A stretch of 40,920 nucleotides of DNA. Origin: Actinomycetes bacterium. GTDB lineage: Bacteria > Actinomycetota > Acidimicrobiia > Acidimicrobiales > Palsa-688. Positions 8,531 to 40,332 of the stretch are shown here, piece by piece. The position numbers and the translations under genes were made by a program. Under the pieces are notes generated by a model. That model had not been told where the DNA came from, did not search any database, and saw only the letters and a program-made list of their open reading frames with translations. The stretch is taken from contig JAJZMF010000021.1 of the NCBI GenBank assembly GCA_021850325.1, forward strand, positions 40,081 through 81,000, read 5' to 3'. Position 1 is the first letter of the stretch; the number at the start of each line of letters is the position of its first letter.

Positions 8531-9229
8531 GTGAGCTTGAAGCTGATTGGTGCAGGGCTGCCCCGCACGGCCACGATGACCCAGAAGCTTGCATTGGAAA
8601 TGCTTGGCTTCGCGCCCTGCTACCACATGGCCAACGTGTGGGGCAACCTCGACTCAGTCCCTCGCTGGCACGAGGCGTACCTCGGTCGCAGGGACTGGGA
8701 CGACGTGTTCGATGGCTACCAGGCCGCGGTGGACTGGCCGGCTTCGTTCTACTACCGGGAGCTCATGGAGGCGTACCCCGAGGCCAAGGTCCTGCTGTCG
8801 GTGCGTAGCGGGGAGTCGTGGGAGCGCAGCATGGGCAACACGATCTGGGGGACCTTCTACGGCGACTTGCTCGTCAACGACCTGTCGACGGCCTGGGGCC
8901 GGGTGGACCGCAAGTGGGCCGACTACATCACGCTGATGAAGGCGATGTGGGAGAAGGCCGGCCTGCTCGCGTCGGAGATGGAGGGGCCGACGGGTGGGAC
9001 CATGGCGGCGGCGATGGAGCGCTACAACGAGGAGGTCAAAGCCACGGTGCCCGCAGACCGCCTGCTCGTCTGGTCGCCGGCCGACGGCTGGGGGCCGCTC
9101 TGCGAGTTCTTGGAGGTGCCCGTACCTGAGGCCCCGCTGCCCCACGTCAACGACAGCAAGGGTTACGAACTGGGGGTCATGGACATGGCCATGGCCGCGC
9201 TGAGGAACTGGAGGGAGAAGCAGGCATAG
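8531..9229 (+). CDS. PAPS-type sulfotransferase family protein
   Basis: Predicted cytosolic enzyme that would move a sulfuryl group from PAPS to a hydroxyl or amine of an unknown acceptor. The 232 residues match the bacterial and plant family with GAGLPRTATMT (residues 7-17) as the 5'-phosphosulfate-binding loop, FAPCYHM a little later, and LLSVRSGESWERSM (about 88-101) as the likely 3'-phosphate-binding segment. The GTG start at 8531 has AGGAGGGG at good spacing and places the loop at the normal distance from the N-terminus. The stop is 35 bases before the MFS/arylsulfotransferase fusion gene on the same strand, so the two probably form an operon. The usual GT in the loop is AT here, so activity should not be taken for granted. 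Confidence 0.8.
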   Translation: MSLKLIGAGLPRTATMTQKLALEMLGFAPCYHMANVWGNLDSVPRWHEAYLGRRDWDDVFDGYQAAVDWPASFYYRELMEAYPEAKVLLSVRSGESWERSMGNTIWGTFYGDLLVNDLSTAWGRVDRKWADYITLMKAMWEKAGLLASEMEGPTGGTMAAAMERYNEEVKATVPADRLLVWSPADGWGPLCEFLEVPVPEAPLPHVNDSKGYELGVMDMAMAALRNWREKQA

Positions 9230-9264
9230 GCGGCACGTCCCTAGGAGGAGAGCGGACGGCCGCC

Positions 9265-12255
9265 ATGGCAGGAGCAGCTGAGGTGAGCGCAGGCGTCGAG
9301 CTCGACGGTACGCCGCCGAGCGGCCGGGGGCGTGGGAGCGGGCAGGGCTGGTTGCTGACGGTCACGTCCCTGGCGCAGTTCATGGTGATCCTGGACCTCT
9401 CGATCGTCAACGTGGCTCTGCCCTCGGTCCAGTCGAGCCTCAACTTCTCGAGCACCGACCTGCAATGGGTGGTCGACGCCTATGCCATCGTTTTCGCCGG
9501 CTTCTTGATGCTGGCGGGACGGGCGACGGACTTCTTCGGGCAGCGGCGGACGTTCGTGGCAGCGCTGGGGCTCTTCTCGGCCACGTCACTGGTGGGCGGG
9601 CTCTCCACGAGCGACCAGATGCTCATGGCGGCACGCGGCTTCCAGGGCCTGTCCGGTGCCATGATGGCTGCAGCGTCGCTTGCGATCATTACCTCCTCGT
9701 TCGCCGAGGGGCCGGCCCGCCACCGGGCGATCGGGCTGTGGGGCGCCATGAACGGAGCAGGTGGAGCGGCCGGGACTCTGCTCGGAGGGGTCATCACCCA
9801 GGAGCTCACCTGGCGGTGGGTCCTGCTCATCAACCCGCCGATCGGGGTGGTGGCCGCGGTGGTCGCCTACAGGGTGGTGGCCGGGGGGCGTCCCGAGAGG
9901 CGTGGGACGCGCTTCGACATAAGCGGGGCGTTGACCCTGACCGCCGGACAGCTGGTGCTCGTCTACGGGATCGTGGCGACCGGCGTCCACGGCTGGTCCT
10001 CTCCCGACGCTCTGGTGCCCATGGGTGCCGGCGCTGCCCTGCTCGCCGCCTTCGGGGTCATCGAGACGCGTTTTGCCAGCTCGCCGCTCGTGCCGCTACG
10101 GGAACTGACCCGCCAGCTGCAGGTGGCCAACCTGATAGTGCTCCTCTTCAGCGCGTCGCTGTTCGCAATGTGGTACGTGAGCTCGCTCTACCTGCAGCAG
10201 GTGCTCGGCCTGTCCCCTCTCAGCACGGGGCTCGTCTTCCTTCCCATGACCCTCATGATCATGCTCGGGGCTTCGCAGGCGGGGCGGCTGGTGCGGCTGT
10301 TCGGGGTGAGGCCCGTGCTCGGGGGCGGCCTGTCGATGCTCTTCGCCGGCATGCTGCTCATGGCGCGTATCGGGCCGAGCGGGAGCGCTCTCGGCTACGT
10401 GGTGCTGCCGGGAGTGCTGACCGCGGCCGGTATCGGCCTGTCGGTGGTGCCGTCGACCATCTTCGCCACCCAGGGGGCGGGGCCCCGGCAGGCCGGGCTG
10501 GCCTCGGGGCTTGTCAACACCTCGCGTCAGGTGGGTGCCGGCGTGGGCCTGGCCCTGCTCGCCACGCTCGCTACGCAGGCCACCAGCCGTGCCGTCGGGC
10601 GCAACGTCGCCGTGCCCCGGGCGCTGACCGAGGGCTTCCGCCTCGCCCTGCTGGTGGGGGCCGGGTTCGTGGCGCTCGCCATCGTGGTCACAGTGGTGTT
10701 CGCCCGCAGCTACGCCCCCAGCCCGGCCGGGCACCGGTTACGGCTCCCGGTGGGCGCCCTCTCGGTGGTCGGGTGCTTCGTGGTCCTGGACTTCGGGCTG
10801 GCCGGTGGCCAGGGGGCGCTGATCGGTGCCTACAAGACCGCTGGTGCGTACAGCTTCGTCTCGGCGCCCGGCCTGTACCCTCCCGAGGTCAAGGCCGTCA
10901 CCCCCACGGCCGGTCCCGCCCTGGCGCCGGGCTACATCATGATGGCCAACTTCTACGACCTGAGCGACCCGCCCATGACGGGCCAGAGCGGCCCACTGAT
11001 CATGGACAACAAGCTGCAGCCGGTCTGGTTCCAGCCGCTGCCCAAGGACGTCGTGGCGTCCAACCTGGCCGTGCAGGCCTACGGGGGCAAGCCGGTCCTC
11101 ACCTGGTGGCAGGGCGTCGTGTCCAGCGCGGGCGAGACCGAGACGGGCGAGGACGTGGTCGTCAACCAGCACTACCAGACCGTGGCCACGCTGCAGGGCC
11201 AGGACGGCTGGGTGCTCACGATGCACGAGATGGTGATCAGCGGCAACGATGCCTGGGTCACGGCCAACAAGACCATGCGCATGGACCTGTCCCGTTACGG
11301 TGGCTCGGTCGACGGGGTGATCGACGATTCCGCTGTCCAGGAGTACGACCTCAGGACGGGGAAGCTCCTCTACACCTGGGACGCACTGGCCCACATCCCG
11401 CTGACGGCCTCCGAAGCGACGACGCCGGGCAACGGGTTCCCCTGGGACGCCTACCACGTCAACTCGGTCAGCCTGGTCGGCAACGGGCAGTTCCTGGTGT
11501 CCATGCGCAACACCTGGGCCGCGTACCTGGTGGACGCGAAGACGGGCTCGGTCGTGTGGCAGCTCGGGGGCAAGCACTCGAGCTTCACGGTCCCCGAGGC
11601 GGCATCGTTCCAGTGGCAGCACGACGTCCGCTGGGACGGCAAGTCGACCGTGACCATGTACGACGACAACTGCTGCCAGCTGACGAGCGGCGGGACCTAT
11701 GTCGCTCCGCAGGGCCCCTCCCGGGGACTGGAGCTGAAGCTGGACATGAGCACCCACAGCGTGTCCATGGTGGCGCAGTACGTGTACGCCAAGGGCTTCG
11801 ATGCCGCCTACATGGGGGACATGCAGGTGCTGCCAAACGGGAACGTCCTGGTGGGCTGGGGTTCGCAGCCCAGGTTCACGGAGTACTCCAAGTCGGGCAA
11901 GGTCCTCCTGGACGCCATACTGCCGGGGAGCGACCTGAGCTACCGGGTAGGGGTGGCCTCCTGGGTGGGGTTGCCCATATCCCCTCCGCAGGGTGCAGCC
12001 CGGGTGGCGGGTGGGTCGACCAGCGTTTACGCCAGCTGGAACGGGGCCACCGAGGTGGCTTCGTGGAGGGTGCTGGCGGGCAGTTCGGCGTCCCGGCTCG
12101 AGCCGGTGGCCAGTGGGGGGAAGCAGGGGTTCGAGTCGCGCCTTGCCGTGAAGGGCACGTTCAGTACCTTCGAGGTCCAGGCCCTCGACGCCAAGGGCCA
12201 GGTGATCGGTACCTCCCGACCGTTCAGCCCGCCTCACGCCGGAGCTCAGGGCTAG
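9265..12255 (+). CDS. MFS exporter fused to an arylsulfotransferase-like domain
   Basis: The 996-residue protein has two parts in one uninterrupted frame. Residues about 27-490 are a 14-helix DHA2 (EmrB/QacA-type) drug:proton antiporter, with LDLSIVNVALPSVQSSL in the first helix and RWVLLINPPIGV in the middle. Residues about 495-515 are one more hydrophobic helix. Residues about 530-985 are an arylsulfotransferase-family propeller with an FN3-like end (SVYASWNGATEVASWRVLAG). Candidate active-site histidines are His654 (MHEMVI), His731 (YHVNS) and His786 (QWQHD). With 14 helices both ends of the carrier are cytoplasmic; the fifteenth helix would place the enzyme domain outside, where this family normally works. 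The ATG at 9265 is 14 bases after AGGAGGAG, a little far. The stop overlaps the convergent gene by three bases. I regard the fusion as real from sequence; the function is inferred. Confidence 0.82.
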   Translation: MAGAAEVSAGVELDGTPPSGRGRGSGQGWLLTVTSLAQFMVILDLSIVNVALPSVQSSLNFSSTDLQWVVDAYAIVFAGFLMLAGRATDFFGQRRTFVAALGLFSATSLVGGLSTSDQMLMAARGFQGLSGAMMAAASLAIITSSFAEGPARHRAIGLWGAMNGAGGAAGTLLGGVITQELTWRWVLLINPPIGVVAAVVAYRVVAGGRPERRGTRFDISGALTLTAGQLVLVYGIVATGVHGWSSPDALVPMGAGAALLAAFGVIETRFASSPLVPLRELTRQLQVANLIVLLFSASLFAMWYVSSLYLQQVLGLSPLSTGLVFLPMTLMIMLGASQAGRLVRLFGVRPVLGGGLSMLFAGMLLMARIGPSGSALGYVVLPGVLTAAGIGLSVVPSTIFATQGAGPRQAGLASGLVNTSRQVGAGVGLALLATLATQATSRAVGRNVAVPRALTEGFRLALLVGAGFVALAIVVTVVFARSYAPSPAGHRLRLPVGALSVVGCFVVLDFGLAGGQGALIGAYKTAGAYSFVSAPGLYPPEVKAVTPTAGPALAPGYIMMANFYDLSDPPMTGQSGPLIMDNKLQPVWFQPLPKDVVASNLAVQAYGGKPVLTWWQGVVSSAGETETGEDVVVNQHYQTVATLQGQDGWVLTMHEMVISGNDAWVTANKTMRMDLSRYGGSVDGVIDDSAVQEYDLRTGKLLYTWDALAHIPLTASEATTPGNGFPWDAYHVNSVSLVGNGQFLVSMRNTWAAYLVDAKTGSVVWQLGGKHSSFTVPEAASFQWQHDVRWDGKSTVTMYDDNCCQLTSGGTYVAPQGPSRGLELKLDMSTHSVSMVAQYVYAKGFDAAYMGDMQVLPNGNVLVGWGSQPRFTEYSKSGKVLLDAILPGSDLSYRVGVASWVGLPISPPQGAARVAGGSTSVYASWNGATEVASWRVLAGSSASRLEPVASGGKQGFESRLAVKGTFSTFEVQALDAKGQVIGTSRPFSPPHAGAQG

Positions 12256-13322
12256 TACCCGCTGGGGCGGGGGGCGGGCGGCCGGTTGAGCCTGTGGGCC
12301 AGGGCCGCCCGGTCGGCCTGGAGCCGTGACGGGTTGCCCTGGCGCACGTCGGTCCCTGTAACCCCGCTCACCCGGCCCGACAGGACGGGCGGCCCGAGCG
12401 GCTCCGGCTCACCGAAGACATCGGCCAGCCACAGCGTGCGCTCGCTGCCCCAGTAGCGCAGCATGGTCACCCCTCCGCCGGGCAGGTCACTGACGAAACC
12501 CTCTGCGGTGAGGAAGCCGGCCCAGCTCAGGTGCACGCCGTCGTAGTCGCAGGCGACGGCGCGCCAGTCGGGCAGGACATGGCGGTCGACGGCCGTGCGG
12601 ACAGCGTGCTGACCGGGGGCCGACGCCAGGAGGGCGACATCCGAGGCGGACTGGTTGGGCCCGGGGAGCTCCCACCCGGCATGGCTGCGGGCCGCCGTCC
12701 TCGGGTACCTCTCGACCAGCGCCACCCAGTCGGCGGGGTGGTCGATGCCCCATACCCGGGCCCCGGGGCGGACCGGCAGCCGCCACCTGGTGACCTCGCC
12801 CTGGTACATCTCCCAGGTGGCCACGAGGTCGTCATGGACATCGTCGGGGGGAGGGCTCACGGTCCAGAGCCCGGAGAAGGTGAACTCTCCGTTGCCGTAG
12901 ACCGCGGCAAGGTCGGTGAACCCGGGCGGGGTGGGCCATGGCGGCTGTGCCAGGTCCGTCCAGTGCTCCTGGAGGCCGAGCTGGCGGCCTGCCACGAGAT
13001 CTTCACGGAAGCGCGCCCAGAGCAGCTCGGCCAGTGCGCGCCTCGCGGGCGCAAGCTCATAGGCCAGGGCGAGCGAGCCTGGCGCTCCCGAGCTCCAGGG
13101 CCCGGCGAGGTGATCGGCGGCCCCGAGGGCGACGTGCAGCAACCGGCCGGACGACAGCGCCCCGACTGCCCTGGTCGCCCGGTCGACCGCCGCCGGGTCG
13201 CTGTCGGCCAGGGCCCAAAAAGGCGGGGCCACCGGTCTCTCGGCAGCCTCCAGGCGGTCGAGGAGGACAACGCCGACCGGGGCCGCCAGCAGGTCGTCGA
13301 CCGTGGGCACCACGCGGCCCAT
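12252..13322 (-). CDS. Hypothetical protein, 356 aa
   Basis: I do not recognise a family. The protein is soluble, without signal peptide or membrane segment, and rich in Trp, Pro and Arg (for example HWTDLAQPPWPTPPGF and VWGIDHPADWVALVERYPR). The N-terminal third is helical, the rest mixed. The frame is open far upstream to 13787, but that part is low-complexity and antisense to the TRIC gene. ATG 13322 with AGGAGCTG before it is the supported start, and codon use changes to a normal pattern there. It is divergent from the TRIC channel gene (55-bp gap) and convergent with the MFS fusion gene, whose stop it overlaps. Confidence 0.72.
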   Translation of the reverse strand: MGRVVPTVDDLLAAPVGVVLLDRLEAAERPVAPPFWALADSDPAAVDRATRAVGALSSGRLLHVALGAADHLAGPWSSGAPGSLALAYELAPARRALAELLWARFREDLVAGRQLGLQEHWTDLAQPPWPTPPGFTDLAAVYGNGEFTFSGLWTVSPPPDDVHDDLVATWEMYQGEVTRWRLPVRPGARVWGIDHPADWVALVERYPRTAARSHAGWELPGPNQSASDVALLASAPGQHAVRTAVDRHVLPDWRAVACDYDGVHLSWAGFLTAEGFVSDLPGGGVTMLRYWGSERTLWLADVFGEPEPLGPPVLSGRVSGVTGTDVRQGNPSRLQADRAALAHRLNRPPAPRPSGY

Positions 13323-13377
13323 ACTGGCAGCTCCTGCCACGCTGCGTGCCCCGGCGGCCATCGACAAGGATTCAGGG

Positions 13378-14031
13378 ATGGTCAAGGGCTTCGACCCCGT
13401 GCTCATCCTCTGGTTGAACCTGGTCGGCACCTTTGTGTTCGGGCTCAGCGGCGGCCTGGCCGGGGCCCGGGCGCGGCTCGACCTGTTCGGGGTGCTCGTA
13501 CTGGCCCTGGTCGTGGCCCTGGCCGGCGGTGTGGTCCGGGACCTGCTGATCGGTACCCCGCCGGCCACCTTCCGGGACTGGCGGTACCTGGCGGCAGCGG
13601 GGGCCGCAGGGCTGGCGACGTTCGCGGCACGGTCCGTCCTCGAGCGGGCCTGGAACGTGGTCCAGGTCCTGGACGCAGGCGGGCTGGCATTGTTCTGTGT
13701 GACCGGCGCAGCCAAAGCGGTCGAGTTCCGCCTGGGGCCGGCCCCGGCCATCATCCTGGGCGCCGTGACGGGCATCGGTGGGGGCATGCTGCGTGACGTC
13801 CTGCTCCGCCAGGTCCCGACGGTGCTGCGCCAGGACCTCTACGCCGTCCCGGCCCTGGCGGGGGCGGCCGTGGTGGTCGCCGCCCACGGCGCCGGCTCCA
13901 CCAGCCTGGCCTTCCCGCTGGCCGGCTTCGTCGTGTGCTTCGCGGTGCGGTTGGCGGCCCTGCGCTTCAAGATCCAGCTGCCGGTGGCCCCAGGCTCGCG
14001 CCACTCGGACGAGACGGGGCGCACCCCGTAG
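13378..14031 (+). CDS. TRIC-family cation channel
   Basis: Predicted homotrimeric potassium-type channel of the inner membrane (formerly UPF0126). The 217 residues form seven predicted helices arranged as two repeats, each with a Gly-rich kink and an Arg-Asp pair: GGVVRD (residues 50-55) and GGGMLRD (134-140). Bacterial members are about 200-220 residues. The ATG 13378 has AAGGA seven bases before it and precedes the first helix directly; the frame is open further upstream but without homology. The 3' end overlaps the convergent ClC gene by 65 bp. Confidence 0.88.
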   Translation: MVKGFDPVLILWLNLVGTFVFGLSGGLAGARARLDLFGVLVLALVVALAGGVVRDLLIGTPPATFRDWRYLAAAGAAGLATFAARSVLERAWNVVQVLDAGGLALFCVTGAAKAVEFRLGPAPAIILGAVTGIGGGMLRDVLLRQVPTVLRQDLYAVPALAGAAVVVAAHGAGSTSLAFPLAGFVVCFAVRLAALRFKIQLPVAPGSRHSDETGRTP

Positions 14032-15988: not shown

Positions 15989-18046
15989 GTGCGCCGTACC
16001 ACCCCCCTTGCAGCGGTAGCCGCCACCTGCCTGCTCGCCTCCGTGGCGGCCTGGGCCCCGGCCACCGTGCCGGGTGCCTCGCTGGCCGAAGCCGTCGTGC
16101 CTGCCCCCGCTGCCGCACGGGTCGAGGTCCTGGGCAAGCCGCTCAACACCGTCAGCAGGGCCCTCTTCGGGGCCAACCTGCTGTGGCCCTACGCCAGTGC
16201 GGGCTCGTTCGACCTGCGCACTGACCGCTTCTACCCGGGCTTCGTGGCGGAGCTCGAGCGGCTCGGCGTCTCGTCGCTGCGCTACCCGGGGGGTACCACG
16301 GCGGACAGCTTCCACTGGGAGCGCGCCATCGGGCCTCGGGCCAGCCGGGGCGCCAACGAGCCCTACGGCATGCAGGGGGCCAACCTGGGACGGGTGTGCT
16401 GCGTGGTGAACGGGCCCACGGCGTCCACGGTGGGCCCGGACGAGTTCGGGCGCCTGCTCCAGCAGACCGGGGCCTCGGGTGATGTGGTCGTCAACTTTGC
16501 CACGGGCACGGTGGGGGAGGCCGCCGGCTTCGTCGCGTACATGACCGCCCCGCTGCCTCGCCACCCCTCGCGCAACCCGGCCGACCCCGGCTACTGGGCA
16601 GCCCTGCGGGCGCGCAACGGGCACCCGGCGCCCTACGACGTGCCCTATTGGGAGGTGGGCAACGAGCAGCTGTTCCCCGGGCAGTACGGCTGGCGGTCCG
16701 GCCAGTTGGTGTCACTGGCGCCGAACAGCCCCCGCTGCCCTGCCGGCGAGGTCGCAACCTGCCTGTACGCGTTCGGCGGCACCACGCGCTTCTCCCATCA
16801 GCGCGTCGGGTGGCTGGCCAGCACGATGCCCTCGGCATCAGTGTCGTCGGGCCGGCCGGCGCAGCGCTTCTACGTCTACTACCCACCGGTGGTGCCCCGG
16901 AGCCAAACGGTCATGGTGGACGGTCGCGTGTGGGCCCCGGTCAGGTCGTTCGCCTCGTACGGCCCGCATGCCCGCGTCTACACCTTTACGCCTGCTGACG
17001 GCAGGCTCACCTTCGGGGACGGCCACCACGGCGCCGTCCCGCCCAGGGGCGCGGTGGTGACGGCCTCCTACGAGTCGGGCCCTCACGGAGGTTTTGTCGA
17101 CTTCTACCGGGCCATGAAGCACATGGCGCCCCGTGCCCACATATGCGAGACCGAGGAGACGAACACGGCCTTCCTGCGCCTGATGGGCAGGAAGTACCGC
17201 TATGACTGCGTCGAGCTGCACGAGTACGCAGCACCCAAGGTGGTGAACGTCCCGCTCAGCACCTATGCGCAGGAGCTGATGTCGTACCCGGCCAAGGAGG
17301 CGGCGCAGCTCGCCCGCCTCCAGGCTGCCATAAGGCGCTACTCGGGCAGGGACGTGCCCGTGTACGTCACCGAGTACGGGCAGCTGGTGTGGCCGGTGCC
17401 CACCAAGGCACCGGAGTTCCTCCTGTCGTTGGGAGAGGCCCTGCTCAACGCGGCCCAGGTCCGCCAGTGGGCGCTTGCCGGGGTGCCGGTAGCGGAGAAG
17501 TACCTTGCCACGTCCTCCCCGTTCGTGGTCGGTGACCCACGCCGGTTGAGCGTCGACAGTGTGGTACGGGTGATACGCAGGGAGCGGGAAGGCCTTGCCG
17601 ATTGGGACCCGGCGCTCAGCATCGACAGTGCGATGGTGGCCGGGCCCGGCCCTCGCTTCGTGGCCGAAGCCAACGGTCTCGCCCTCGGGCTCATGTCCAG
17701 CCTGGGAGGTGAGCGCCTGGTCCGTTCGGTTGTCGTCGGTGGGCCGTCACTGGCCGGCGGGGCCCAACCCGCGCTCGTCTCGCTGGCTGCGCTGGGCAGG
17801 GCCGCTGGCCACCTGGTGGTCATCAACTCCAGCCCCTCCAGGGCGGTGCGGGCGACGGTGGCCGGGGGCCCTCTCCGTCGCGGGCCGACGCTGCAGGTCT
17901 CCGTGCTCAACGGCCCCGGGACCGGCGCCTACAACACGCTGGCCCACCCGCGCACGGTGCGGGTGGTCACCCGGAGCGTGAGGGTGGGCGACGGCCGGTT
18001 CGCCTGGACCTTCCCGGCGCACTCGGTGACCTTGTTCCGCTTCTGA
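15989..18046 (+). CDS. Secreted GH-A clan glycosidase, arabinofuranosidase-like
   Basis: Exported enzyme of 685 residues likely to hydrolyse a polysaccharide or glycoside outside the cell. A signal peptide (RRTTPLAAVAATCLLASVAA) opens the protein. LRYPGGTTADSFHWERAIGP (about 97-116) and YWEVGNE (220-226) are typical of GH51-like alpha-L-arabinofuranosidases; Glu226 is the acid/base candidate and Glu462 in YVTEYGQL the nucleophile candidate. Between them, about residues 290-365, is an inserted beta-rich segment with GDGHHGAVPP, not part of the catalytic barrel. The end (about 600-685) looks like the beta-sandwich usual in the family. GH51, GH39 and GH79 relatives share these features, so family and substrate are not settled. 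It is divergent from the ClC gene. Confidence 0.75.
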   Translation: MRRTTPLAAVAATCLLASVAAWAPATVPGASLAEAVVPAPAAARVEVLGKPLNTVSRALFGANLLWPYASAGSFDLRTDRFYPGFVAELERLGVSSLRYPGGTTADSFHWERAIGPRASRGANEPYGMQGANLGRVCCVVNGPTASTVGPDEFGRLLQQTGASGDVVVNFATGTVGEAAGFVAYMTAPLPRHPSRNPADPGYWAALRARNGHPAPYDVPYWEVGNEQLFPGQYGWRSGQLVSLAPNSPRCPAGEVATCLYAFGGTTRFSHQRVGWLASTMPSASVSSGRPAQRFYVYYPPVVPRSQTVMVDGRVWAPVRSFASYGPHARVYTFTPADGRLTFGDGHHGAVPPRGAVVTASYESGPHGGFVDFYRAMKHMAPRAHICETEETNTAFLRLMGRKYRYDCVELHEYAAPKVVNVPLSTYAQELMSYPAKEAAQLARLQAAIRRYSGRDVPVYVTEYGQLVWPVPTKAPEFLLSLGEALLNAAQVRQWALAGVPVAEKYLATSSPFVVGDPRRLSVDSVVRVIRREREGLADWDPALSIDSAMVAGPGPRFVAEANGLALGLMSSLGGERLVRSVVVGGPSLAGGAQPALVSLAALGRAAGHLVVINSSPSRAVRATVAGGPLRRGPTLQVSVLNGPGTGAYNTLAHPRTVRVVTRSVRVGDGRFAWTFPAHSVTLFRF

Positions 18047-28307: not shown

Positions 28308-29966
28308 ATGGGCGACGGTGTCGGTACCGATGGAGCCGAGGCGGGCAGCGGCGAGCAGGCCACCGGCGGTGGCCGGGGCCTGAGCCGCCGCCACTTCCTG
28401 CTCGGCTTGGGCGGCCTGGCGACCCTCGGCGTGGGCGGGGTGGCCGGTTACGAGTGGCCCCACGGCACGAGCCGGCCGGTCGCCCGCCTGGGCGGGAGGG
28501 CGGCGGCAGCGCCGCTGGCGCGCACAGCGGCGGCCGGGAGTGCTCTGCCCTCCGAGGTGGTCGCCTTTGTCAGCCGGCCCGACCTGCGGCCGCCCCTGGT
28601 CCGCGTCGCCCACAGCCATGCCCGCCTGAGCCCCGCGGGCACGCGACTGGCTGCCCCCGCCTCCCCCGAGTACATCTTCCTGGCCGTGAAGGGCTACAGA
28701 GGCCCCGTGCCCAGCCAGGCGGGCCTGCTGGTGGTCGACCGGCGCGGCCAGGTGGTCTGGTTCAAGCCGGTTTCCCCCGCTGAACCGTTCGATTTCAACG
28801 TCCAGTCCTATCGGGGCGAGCGGGTGCTCACCTGGTGGCAGGGGACCGTCGACAAGGGAGTGGGTTACGGCCAGGGCAAGCTTGCCGACAGCTCCTACGG
28901 GCTGGTGCGGACCATCGGTGGCCACGACGGGCTGGTGCCCGACCTCCACGAGCTCAACCTGACCTCGTCGGGTACGGCCCTGGTCACCGCGTACCACACC
29001 GTCGACGCCGACCTGTCCCGCTACGGCGGCCACAGCCGGGCCCCCGTGCTGGCCAGCCACGCCCTGGAGATAGACCTGGCCACGGGGAAGGTGCTGATGA
29101 ACTGGGACAGCCTGGAGCACGTGGGTTTTGGGGAGTCCTACGCACCGGCGCCCAAGGCCAAGGGCGCCCCCTGGGACTACTTCCACATCAACTCCATCGC
29201 CGAGATGCCCAACGGCAACCTCTTGATATCGGCGCGCAACACCTGGGCGCTGTACGAGGTCGAGCGCACGACGGGCAAGGTGCTCTGGCGCGTCAACGGC
29301 AAGAAGTCCGACTTCACCATGGCCAGCGATGCCCACTTCTACTGGCAGCACCATGCCAGGCCGCACCCGGGCAACCGGCTCACGGTCTTCGACGACGGCG
29401 GTACGCCGGCCGAGGAGCGCCAGTCCCGGGGCCTGCTCCTCAACCTGGACACCAAGGCCAGGCATGTGAGCCTCGAGCATGCCTACCTGCACCCGGCGGG
29501 CTTCCTGGCCGCCAACCAGGGCAGCGTGCAACTGCTGGCGGACGGCCGGGTGTTCATCGGCTGGGGCAACCAGCCCTACTTCTCGGAGTTCAGCGCCGAC
29601 GGCACCATGTTGCTGGACGGCGAGCTGCCTCCCAACGTCCAGTCCTACCGGGCCTTCACCCACGACTGGGCCGGGCACCCGACCGAGCCACCTGCCGTGG
29701 TGGCGCGCACCAACCCTGCCGGTGGGGCCACAGTGTTCGCCAGCTGGAACGGCGCCACGGCACTGGACAGCTGGAAGGTGCTGGCCGGGGCGAGCGCCAC
29801 CTCCCTGCAGCCGGTGGGGAGCCAGGAGCGTACGGCCTTTGAGACCGCGGTGGCCGTCAACTCCGAGGGGCCGTACTTCAGGGCCGTGGCGCTCGACGCC
29901 CACGGTAGGGAGCTGGGCCGCTCACCGGTCGTCAAGCTGACCGGGGCCACGCCCAAGGGGGCCTGA
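28308..29966 (+). CDS. Tat-exported arylsulfotransferase-like protein
   Basis: Predicted secreted or membrane-tethered enzyme, 552 residues, of the PAPS-independent arylsulfotransferase family, which moves sulfate from an aryl sulfate to another phenol. The signal has twin arginines (LSRRHFLLGLGG, Arg27-Arg28). The propeller domain spans about 115-480 and ends in an FN3-like module (VFASWNGATALDSWKVLAG). Candidate active-site residues are His214 (LHELNL), His293 (FHINS), Arg310 and His348/His349 (WQHHARPH). It is co-linear with the C-terminal half of the MFS fusion protein at 9265, sharing LTWWQG, DLSRYGG, NTWA and the SWNGAT end. Some members of this broad family have no proven sulfotransferase activity, so substrate and reaction are inferred. 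ATG 28308 is preferred; GAGAG is the only nearby purine stretch. Confidence 0.8.
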   Translation: MGDGVGTDGAEAGSGEQATGGGRGLSRRHFLLGLGGLATLGVGGVAGYEWPHGTSRPVARLGGRAAAAPLARTAAAGSALPSEVVAFVSRPDLRPPLVRVAHSHARLSPAGTRLAAPASPEYIFLAVKGYRGPVPSQAGLLVVDRRGQVVWFKPVSPAEPFDFNVQSYRGERVLTWWQGTVDKGVGYGQGKLADSSYGLVRTIGGHDGLVPDLHELNLTSSGTALVTAYHTVDADLSRYGGHSRAPVLASHALEIDLATGKVLMNWDSLEHVGFGESYAPAPKAKGAPWDYFHINSIAEMPNGNLLISARNTWALYEVERTTGKVLWRVNGKKSDFTMASDAHFYWQHHARPHPGNRLTVFDDGGTPAEERQSRGLLLNLDTKARHVSLEHAYLHPAGFLAANQGSVQLLADGRVFIGWGNQPYFSEFSADGTMLLDGELPPNVQSYRAFTHDWAGHPTEPPAVVARTNPAGGATVFASWNGATALDSWKVLAGASATSLQPVGSQERTAFETAVAVNSEGPYFRAVALDAHGRELGRSPVVKLTGATPKGA

Positions 29967-39400: not shown

Positions 39401-40332
39401 GCTGCGCTCCTCTGGCCTTCCCAGGCGACGCCGTGGCTCTTGAACTCGACAGATCCGGAGGTGAGCTCCATGAAGGCCTCTTCGAGCGAGGCGCTCTCCG
39501 CCACCAGCTCGTAGAGAGCGATCCCGTGCTCGCGGGCCAGCTCGCCGACCTGCTCGGAGCTGACGCCCTCCACCCTGAGCAGGCCGGGCTCGCTGCTGGT
39601 GACGGTCACGCCCGGGCCGGCCAACAGGTCCCGCAGGCGCGCCGCCTCGGGTGAGCGGGCCCGCACCGTGTTGCCGGCCGCCGTGCGCACCAGCTCTTCC
39701 ATGCTCACGTCTGCGATGAGCCTGCCTCGGCCTACCACGATGACGTGGTCGGCGGTGACCGCCATCTCGTTCAGCAGGTGGCTCGAGACGAGCACCGTCC
39801 GGCCCTGGGCGGCCAGGTCCCGCAGCAGGCCCCGGATCCACAGGATGCCCTCGGGGTCCAGGCCGTTCACCGGCTCGTCGAGGATGATGGTGGCCGGGTC
39901 CCCGAGGAGGGCGGCGGCGATACCGAGCCGTTGGCCCATGCCGAGCGAGAAGGCCCCGGCCCGCCGGCGGGCGACCTCCTCCAGGCCGACCAGGCCGATC
40001 ACCTCGTCCACCCGGCGCCGCGGGATGCCGTGGGTGGCCGCCAGGGCGAGCAGGTGGTTGAGGGCGGAGCGGCCGGTGTGGGCGGCACGTGCCTCGAGGT
40101 GGGTGCCGACCTCGTGCAAGGGGGCGGCATGGTCGCGGTAAGGCTTGCCGTTGACGGTCACCGTCCCCGAGCTGGGCCGGTCGAGCCCGACGACCATACG
40201 CATGGTCGTGGACTTGCCGGCGCCGTTGGGGCCCAGGAACCCGGTCACCACACCGGGGGCCACGGCGAAGGAGAGGTCGTCGACCGCTGTCTTGGGGCCG
40301 TACCTCTTGGTCAGGTGCTGAGCTTGGATCAT
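39397..40332 (-). CDS. ABC exporter ATPase, BcrA type
   Basis: 311 residues: Walker A GPNGAGKST, Walker B TIILDEPVNGLD and signature SLGMGQRLGIA, the form usual in BcrA/CcmA-like exporter ATPases. A C-terminal region (about 220-300) with VTSSEPGLLRVEGV is typical of drug-resistance ATPases. It is the first gene of the four-gene operon ATPase, permease, kinase, regulator. In other Gram-positive bacteria, this order serves resistance to peptide antibiotics or membrane stress; the substrate here is unknown. The ATG is at 40332. Confidence 0.92.
   Translation of the reverse strand: MIQAQHLTKRYGPKTAVDDLSFAVAPGVVTGFLGPNGAGKSTTMRMVVGLDRPSSGTVTVNGKPYRDHAAPLHEVGTHLEARAAHTGRSALNHLLALAATHGIPRRRVDEVIGLVGLEEVARRRAGAFSLGMGQRLGIAAALLGDPATIILDEPVNGLDPEGILWIRGLLRDLAAQGRTVLVSSHLLNEMAVTADHVIVVGRGRLIADVSMEELVRTAAGNTVRARSPEAARLRDLLAGPGVTVTSSEPGLLRVEGVSSEQVGELAREHGIALYELVAESASLEEAFMELTSGSVEFKSHGVAWEGQRSAA

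Follow-up and report, generated by a model that had tools for sequence, protein, structure and literature searches.

How could a bacterium sulfate molecules outside its membrane, when 3'-phosphoadenosine-5'-phosphosulfate (PAPS) is a cytoplasmic cofactor? This question is raised by two adjacent genes in a 40,920-nucleotide stretch of DNA (hereafter the window: positions 40,081 to 81,000 of contig JAJZMF010000021.1, assembly GCA_021850325.1) from an uncultured actinobacterium of the order Acidimicrobiales. The first gene encodes a PAPS-type sulfotransferase. The second encodes a carrier of the major facilitator superfamily (MFS) fused to an arylsulfotransferase (ASST) domain predicted to face outward. 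The best explanation of this pair, which we judge a little likelier to be right than wrong, is a two-step sulfate relay across the membrane. The first-pass annotation of the window had described a sulfotransferase, a 35-bp gap, then a single frame with a 14-helix MFS part, a fifteenth helix and an ASST domain; the open reading frames (ORFs), Pfam matches and hydropathy all agreed with it. The features of the pair are listed below, with their basis between brackets.

8531..9229, plus strand: PAPS-type sulfotransferase, PF17784, Cpz8-like, 232 residues, GTG start (Pfam, closest PDB chain, 17-sequence alignment)
9230..9264, plus strand: intergenic gap of 35 bases, with AGGAGG at 9243-9248, 16 bases ahead of the ATG (sequence)
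9265..12255, plus strand: MFS-ASST fusion protein, 996 residues, ATG start (ORF, Pfam, relatives)
9265..10701, plus strand: 14-helix DHA2-type MFS carrier, residues 1-479, closest folds EfpA, QacA and EmrAB
10744..10800, plus strand: fifteenth transmembrane helix, residues 494-512, with basic residues ahead of it (hydropathy, model)
10843..12252, plus strand: ASST domain, predicted outward, closest solved relative Cpz4 (Pfam, model, fold match)
within 10843..12252, plus strand: propeller strands at about residues 558-885 and C-terminal beta-sandwich at residues 909-983
11224..11226, plus strand: His654 (invariant in 39 of 39 aligned fusions, as are the residues below)
11455..11463, plus strand: His731 and Asn733, in the motif HVN
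11506..11508, plus strand: Arg748
11620..11622, plus strand: His786, presumably the residue that becomes sulfated, as His436 does in the Escherichia coli enzyme
11671..11676, plus strand: Cys803-Cys804, adjacent

The sulfotransferase frame matched Sulfotransfer_4 (PF17784) with 205 bits, and the 996-residue frame matched both MFS_1 (PF07690, 162 bits) and Arylsulfotran_2 (PF14269, 154.4 bits against a cut-off of 27). The segment GAGLPRTATMTQK of the sulfotransferase resembles a 5'-phosphosulfate loop.

The fusion was not restricted to the window. The same genome carries a second sulfotransferase and MFS-ASST pair on another contig (locus L006), whose fusion is 64% identical to the first over 983 residues, and which is adjoined by a divergent ASST with a signal of the twin-arginine translocation (Tat) type. 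A search for the MFS-ASST architecture, as the first-pass annotation had proposed, gave 45 loci from a scan of named genomes; together with the window, L006 and L043, the set comprised 48 distinct loci. Both domains were found in one frame in 46 of them (the window, L006 and 44 others), five of the single-frame fusions outside the window ending at a contig edge. In L091 and L101 the ASST part was found alone at a contig end. In L127 (genome G028, 1-2409), the coding sequence of the carrier is broken into two frames and the contig end cuts the gene, with an intact sulfotransferase upstream; this break is either natural or an assembly error. Hosts of the fusion loci were labelled Acidimicrobiaceae or Acidimicrobiales, Solirubrobacterales, 'Actinomycetes', Streptosporangiales (one case) and others, and the label Chlamydiae of L091 is perhaps a binning error. 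The main alignment of fusions, with the window first, holds 39 of the 46 and omits L006, L043 and the cut L076, L080, L092, L096 and L099.

Among 296 genomes sampled across the phylum, an ASST relative (E <= 1e-20) was detected in 16, own genome included, and the only frames of more than 900 residues among these relatives were the two fusions of this genome. When 299 genomes were taken from the class to which one Solirubrobacterales host belongs, matches at E <= 1e-100 turned up in 10: nine as the fusion (one cut by a contig end) and one unfused. The MFS-ASST fusion is thus conserved yet rare. Another family of the order has a 1119-residue open frame with an ASST match and no carrier (L052:6655-10011).

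A sequencing error or chimeric join near 10735-10760, and absence of the fusion from relatives, had both been named as grounds for doubting the gene. The frame is open through this interval, and a hidden frameshift or stop does not account for the fusion, because the paralogue and 44 other loci keep one frame. Absence from relatives was likewise rejected, since the relatives carry the fusion.

On which side of the membrane does the ASST domain lie? By hydropathy, a fifteenth helix (residues 494-512) follows the first 14, and no further one appears in the remaining 480 or so residues. The full-length fusion was also modelled with AlphaFold2 from the 39-fusion alignment (mean predicted local distance difference test score, pLDDT, 77.6; predicted template modelling score 0.73); the model displayed the helices followed by a beta-rich domain ending in a beta-sandwich. 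Of the loops, the eight that share the side of the N-terminus had on average 1.7-3.8 lysines and arginines each in the 39 fusions, against 0-1.4 for the seven opposite ones. Over all 15 helices, this charge pattern puts the ASST tail on the outer side. The carrier is also predicted to have 14 helices with both ends inside, as is characteristic of DHA2 carriers.

Two unfused relatives of the fusion's ASST type point the same way. L125:6897-8534 encodes a fusion-type ASST without carrier, whose N-terminus looks, on inspection by eye, like a Sec signal peptide, and L081, partial and cut by a contig end, displays a Sec-like signal, also by eye. Both are nested among the fusions in the tree, where the group of the window (12 tips) is their sister at ultrafast bootstrap 100. 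The split between the fusions with these two and 46 companion ASSTs likewise has an ultrafast bootstrap of 100. The cut L091 and L101, which have the cysteine pair of the fusions, were omitted from this final tree, so that it contains 46 companions and not 48. The stand-alone ASSTs carry export signals as well: a strict Tat motif was present in 27 of 63 distinct frames, and many of those from Solirubrobacterales have lipoprotein-like or hydrophobic N-termini (by eye, uncounted). Charge distribution, model and the two relatives with signal peptides thus support a predicted location of the ASST domain outside the membrane, as the first-pass annotation had proposed from helix count. A cytoplasmic location was rejected on the basis of the charge pattern, these two relatives and the export signals of the companions.

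Insertion of helix 15 by the Tat pathway was also considered, because a pair of arginines precedes this helix in 27 of 39 fusions. None of the other fourteen helices is as hydrophobic as helix 15 (mean 2.67, whereas the companion Tat signals average 1.57), and the net charge after it is small (mean +0.41, range -1 to +3). By the criteria set out in the available part of PMC5449189, these two properties argue against a dual Sec-Tat insertion, which was therefore rejected.

The catalytic residues of the outer domain are conserved. His654, His731, Asn733, Arg748 and His786 align with identical residues of Cpz4 (sequence alignment, by eye), and 45 to 48 of the 48 companion ASSTs (L091 and L101 counted in) keep them. 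By analogy with His436 of the E. coli arylsulfotransferase (EcAST), His786 is likely the nucleophile; we take the His, Asn and Arg positions to be equivalent to those of EcAST one to one, by motif. The ASST domain matched Cpz4 in sequence (E 5.8e-88, domain residues 27-483) and in fold (E 2.4e-27). Every one of the 39 aligned fusions has the pair Cys803-Cys804, and so do the unfused L125 and the cut L091 and L101, but it is missing from all 46 other companions. In 38 of the 39 fusions these are the sole cysteines of the outer domain, where they could possibly form a vicinal disulfide.

A further ASST was found in 32 of the 46 fusion loci, and in Solirubrobacterales it often lies upstream of the fusion. 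The window has its own, 16 kb downstream of the fusion and uncounted in this figure:

28308..29966, plus strand: stand-alone ASST of companion type, 552 residues, with a Tat-type signal, LSRRHFLLGLGG

The partner gene was then considered. By sequence, the PDB chain closest to the sulfotransferase is 9kf1, Cpz8, and Cpz8 is also the best fold match of its model (pLDDT 91.4). A sulfotransferase lies immediately upstream of the fusion, on the same strand, in 16 of the 46 fusion loci, both copies of this genome included; in 4 more it lies at another place within the stretch that was fetched, giving 20 linked loci. The first hidden Markov model (HMM) of the sulfotransferases had included two neighbours that fail a clean HMM (L066:143-1357 and L100:1-462); with the clean HMM, the sulfotransferase was confirmed in each of the four loci. 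The linkage that the first-pass annotation had proposed to look for was present in 20 of 46 loci, but adjacency is not universal.

In a sample of 61 relatives, 13 intact fusion genes were detected in 10 genomes, and 12 of the 13 had a sulfotransferase just upstream; in the exception (G026) it is on another contig. PF17784 scored above its cut-off in 10 of 10 fusion genomes and in 12 of 51 others (Fisher p 7e-6, uncorrected for kinship). One of these 12 has a cut, frame-broken fusion with an upstream sulfotransferase; counting it with the fusions gives 11 of 11 against 11 of 50. Among the 26 genomes without a local sulfotransferase, 22 have a PF17784 gene elsewhere. Twenty stretches around such unlinked genes, taken from 45 listed matches and covering 19 of the 22 genomes, were scored with the HMM of the linked sulfotransferases: 19 reached at least 302 bits and one 183 bits, and an ASST was nearby in one of the 20. 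The genome of the window has a gene for adenosine-5'-phosphosulfate kinase; thus, PAPS can be made. A divergent gene pair at L074:7983-10580, also seen in L105 to L108, matches the sulfotransferase HMM, one gene being a frame of 560-670 residues with extra sequence.

These elements can be assembled into a membrane-crossing relay. In the cytoplasm, the Cpz8-like sulfotransferase would move sulfate from PAPS onto a phenolic small molecule, and the DHA2-type carrier would export the resulting aryl sulfate. Outside, the tethered Cpz4-like domain would take the sulfuryl group onto His786 and transfer it to an acceptor located outside the cell, releasing the phenol. The stand-alone exported ASSTs near the fusion in many relatives may share the same exported donor. 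We infer that the carrier moves an aryl sulfate and that the cell itself produces the phenol. A sugar hydroxyl would be a fair guess for the acceptor, by analogy with Cpz4, which reportedly prefers sugar hydroxyls.

From the linkage and the fusion one can read where the donor would come from (the linked sulfotransferase), how it would leave (through the fused carrier) and where it would be used (outside the membrane). Should the relay hold, it would show how cells sulfate molecules outside while PAPS is cytoplasmic. The occurrence of the pair in uncultured soil and peat actinobacteria suggests a route to sulfation outside the cell without the usual donor being present there. More tentatively, and with a chance that we put somewhat short of even, this could be a general form of bacterial sulfation outside the cell: PAPS would stay inside, an aryl sulfate would serve as exported carrier of the sulfate, the exporter would hold the second transferase, and the donor would be used on exit. 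The linked exported ASSTs would then make up a small system for sulfation at the surface, supplied by a single exporter, and this would account for their donor.

Several observations weigh against the relay. The fetched stretch has no sulfotransferase in 26 of the 46 fusion loci, and in 4 of the corresponding 26 genomes no PF17784 gene was found anywhere, these assemblies being perhaps incomplete. No ASST was found in 19 of the 20 stretches around unlinked sulfotransferases, several of which are short contigs. The carrier's closest folds (EfpA, QacA and EmrAB, VIA Z 37.8-42.7) belong to multidrug and lipid-bound pumps and are uninformative on aryl sulfates; EfpA structures are among the very closest, and one of these contains bound lipids. 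At carrier position 171, where the proline of antiporter motif C would be expected, none of the 38 readable fusions has one. This absence makes the transport activity of the carrier and its direction uncertain. Finally, no match to type III polyketide synthase (PF00195) was found in the genome, which is 95% complete; therefore the shuttle phenol of caprazamycin is not evidently made here, and the phenol is probably a different one.

The gene families of both enzymes, the fusion, the outward topology (by several independent lines of prediction), the invariant catalytic residues and the recurrent linkage are supported by the data. The relay is weakest on what is transported, since the carrier may move either donor or acceptor outward. 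It is possible, though unlikely, that the acceptor is what the carrier pumps out, in the form of a glycosylated or lipid-like metabolite that is sulfated on emergence, the aryl sulfate donor coming by another route or from the surroundings. The resemblance of the carrier to lipid-binding EfpA and to multidrug pumps would fit this explanation, as would the 26 loci without local sulfotransferase and the unfused L125, which lies near a sugar aminotransferase and a polysaccharide-synthesis gene. The available part of PMC13426309 also reports that Cpz4 sulfates caprazamycin derivatives with a preference for sugar hydroxyls. However, direct linkage of the sulfotransferase in 16 of 46 loci, with both copies of this genome among them, weighs against it, and no biosynthetic or antibiotic cluster was evident beside the pair among the subset of window frames that was scanned.

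Phenol detoxification appears improbable. The sulfotransferase would conjugate toxic phenols, the carrier would expel the conjugates, and the outer domain would merely recover or dump sulfate. The carrier is indeed of a drug-export kind, and a sulfatase-family cluster lies beside the cassette in four loci. Moreover, 13 of 45 locus records carry bog, palsa, fen or Chersky in their title; bog, palsa and fen soils are rich in phenolics, and Chersky is a permafrost site. Plain disposal, however, needs no transferase domain tethered outside, and neither the invariance of the catalytic residues nor the further ASSTs in 32 of 46 loci favours it.

We regard it as very doubtful that the outer domain is a non-catalytic propeller, acting as sensor or binding module for the carrier: propellers often bind ligands and the ASST function is a predicted one, but the five catalytic residues are invariant and shared with Cpz4. 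The chance that the fusion is an assembly or sequencing artefact joining two genes is negligible, for although the 45 scanned loci come from metagenome-assembled or similar records, one frame is kept in 46 distinct loci from many studies and in a second copy of this genome, and the fusion-type ASSTs (with the two secreted ones) split from their companions as described above.

The genes around the fusion were also compared, to see whether a shared pathway might point to the acceptor. In 388 called genes of the 48 loci, no cluster beyond ASST, fusion, MFS and sulfotransferase was found in more than seven loci, and so no conserved neighbour pathway was detected; genes were called with a rough GC-position script that misses some, and single-linkage clusters may merge unrelated parts. 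The sulfatase-family cluster stands at the end of the ASST cassettes in L067, L077, L085 and L097, its PF00884 assignment coming from the L067 member (9349-11277), the one run against Pfam. TauE/SafE-type transporter genes adjoin the fusion cassette in two loci (L060:7641-8726 and L064:2117-3229). Together, these sulfatase and TauE genes hint at sulfur chemistry without naming an acceptor. The sugar-related genes of the L125 stretch are a single case. In the window itself, a minus-strand frame of 511 residues (12252-13787) immediately after the fusion had no Pfam or NCBIfam match. A 685-residue protein at 15989-18046 had a weak NCBIfam match to arabinofuranosidase, far under the cut-off, and a homologue of it adjoins the fusion in L063 (7773-9878).

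How does the pair compare with known systems? The DHA2 drug exporters EfpA, QacA and EmrAB share the carrier's fold and length, and an EmrB-subfamily NCBIfam model matched the carrier with 198 bits, under its cut-off of 230. Here, in contrast, a fifteenth helix and an outer enzyme follow, and the motif C proline is absent from all 38 readable fusions. The dual Sec-Tat proteins described in the available part of PMC5449189 (actinobacterial Rieske protein, Sco3746) are built likewise: the helices before the last are even in number, basic residues come next, and the final helix anchors a domain outside. Their last helix, as described there, is weakly hydrophobic and followed by positive charges, unlike helix 15.

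EcAST works by a ping-pong mechanism through a sulfated histidine (His436), is periplasmic and is encoded in an operon with DsbL/DsbI, according to the available part of PMC13426309, where no carrier domain is mentioned for it. It thus acts outside the cytoplasm, as predicted for the fused domain. No EcAST chain was among the PDB sequence matches of the ASST domain, the VIA-align rows being mostly carriers and uninformative on this point.

The closest system is the sulfation of caprazamycin. In the available parts of PMC4257720 and PMC6731281, Cpz8 makes a phenolic sulfate from PAPS and Cpz4, itself independent of PAPS, hands the sulfate on; the shuttle phenol is the product of a type III polyketide synthase. 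Both proteins of our pair have their closest solved relatives there, by sequence and fold (Cpz8, 9kf1/9kf2; Cpz4, 9kf4/9kf6). Enzyme families and catalytic residues are shared, and the homology to Cpz4 spans the propeller and the C-terminal part. The two systems differ in that the solved Cpz4 chain (472 residues) has no carrier, whereas in our pair an MFS carrier is joined to the second enzyme, which is predicted to lie outside, and in that this genome has neither a type III polyketide synthase match nor an antibiotic cluster among the window frames scanned. The match to both halves of an established relay is the strongest argument for the relay proposed in the first-pass annotation; by the same token, the idea of a relay is not in itself new. 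The sulfate relay suggested in the first-pass annotation has thus gained strong indirect support, while we still infer the export of an aryl sulfate and the identity of donor and acceptor. That annotation knew of no described system of this kind; this stands for the exporter-tethered form, of which an open-licence literature library yielded no description, but not for the two-step chemistry, already described for caprazamycin. Altogether, the chemistry of the relay is known already, and what appears to be new is its membrane-spanning layout, with the second enzyme tethered to the exporter.

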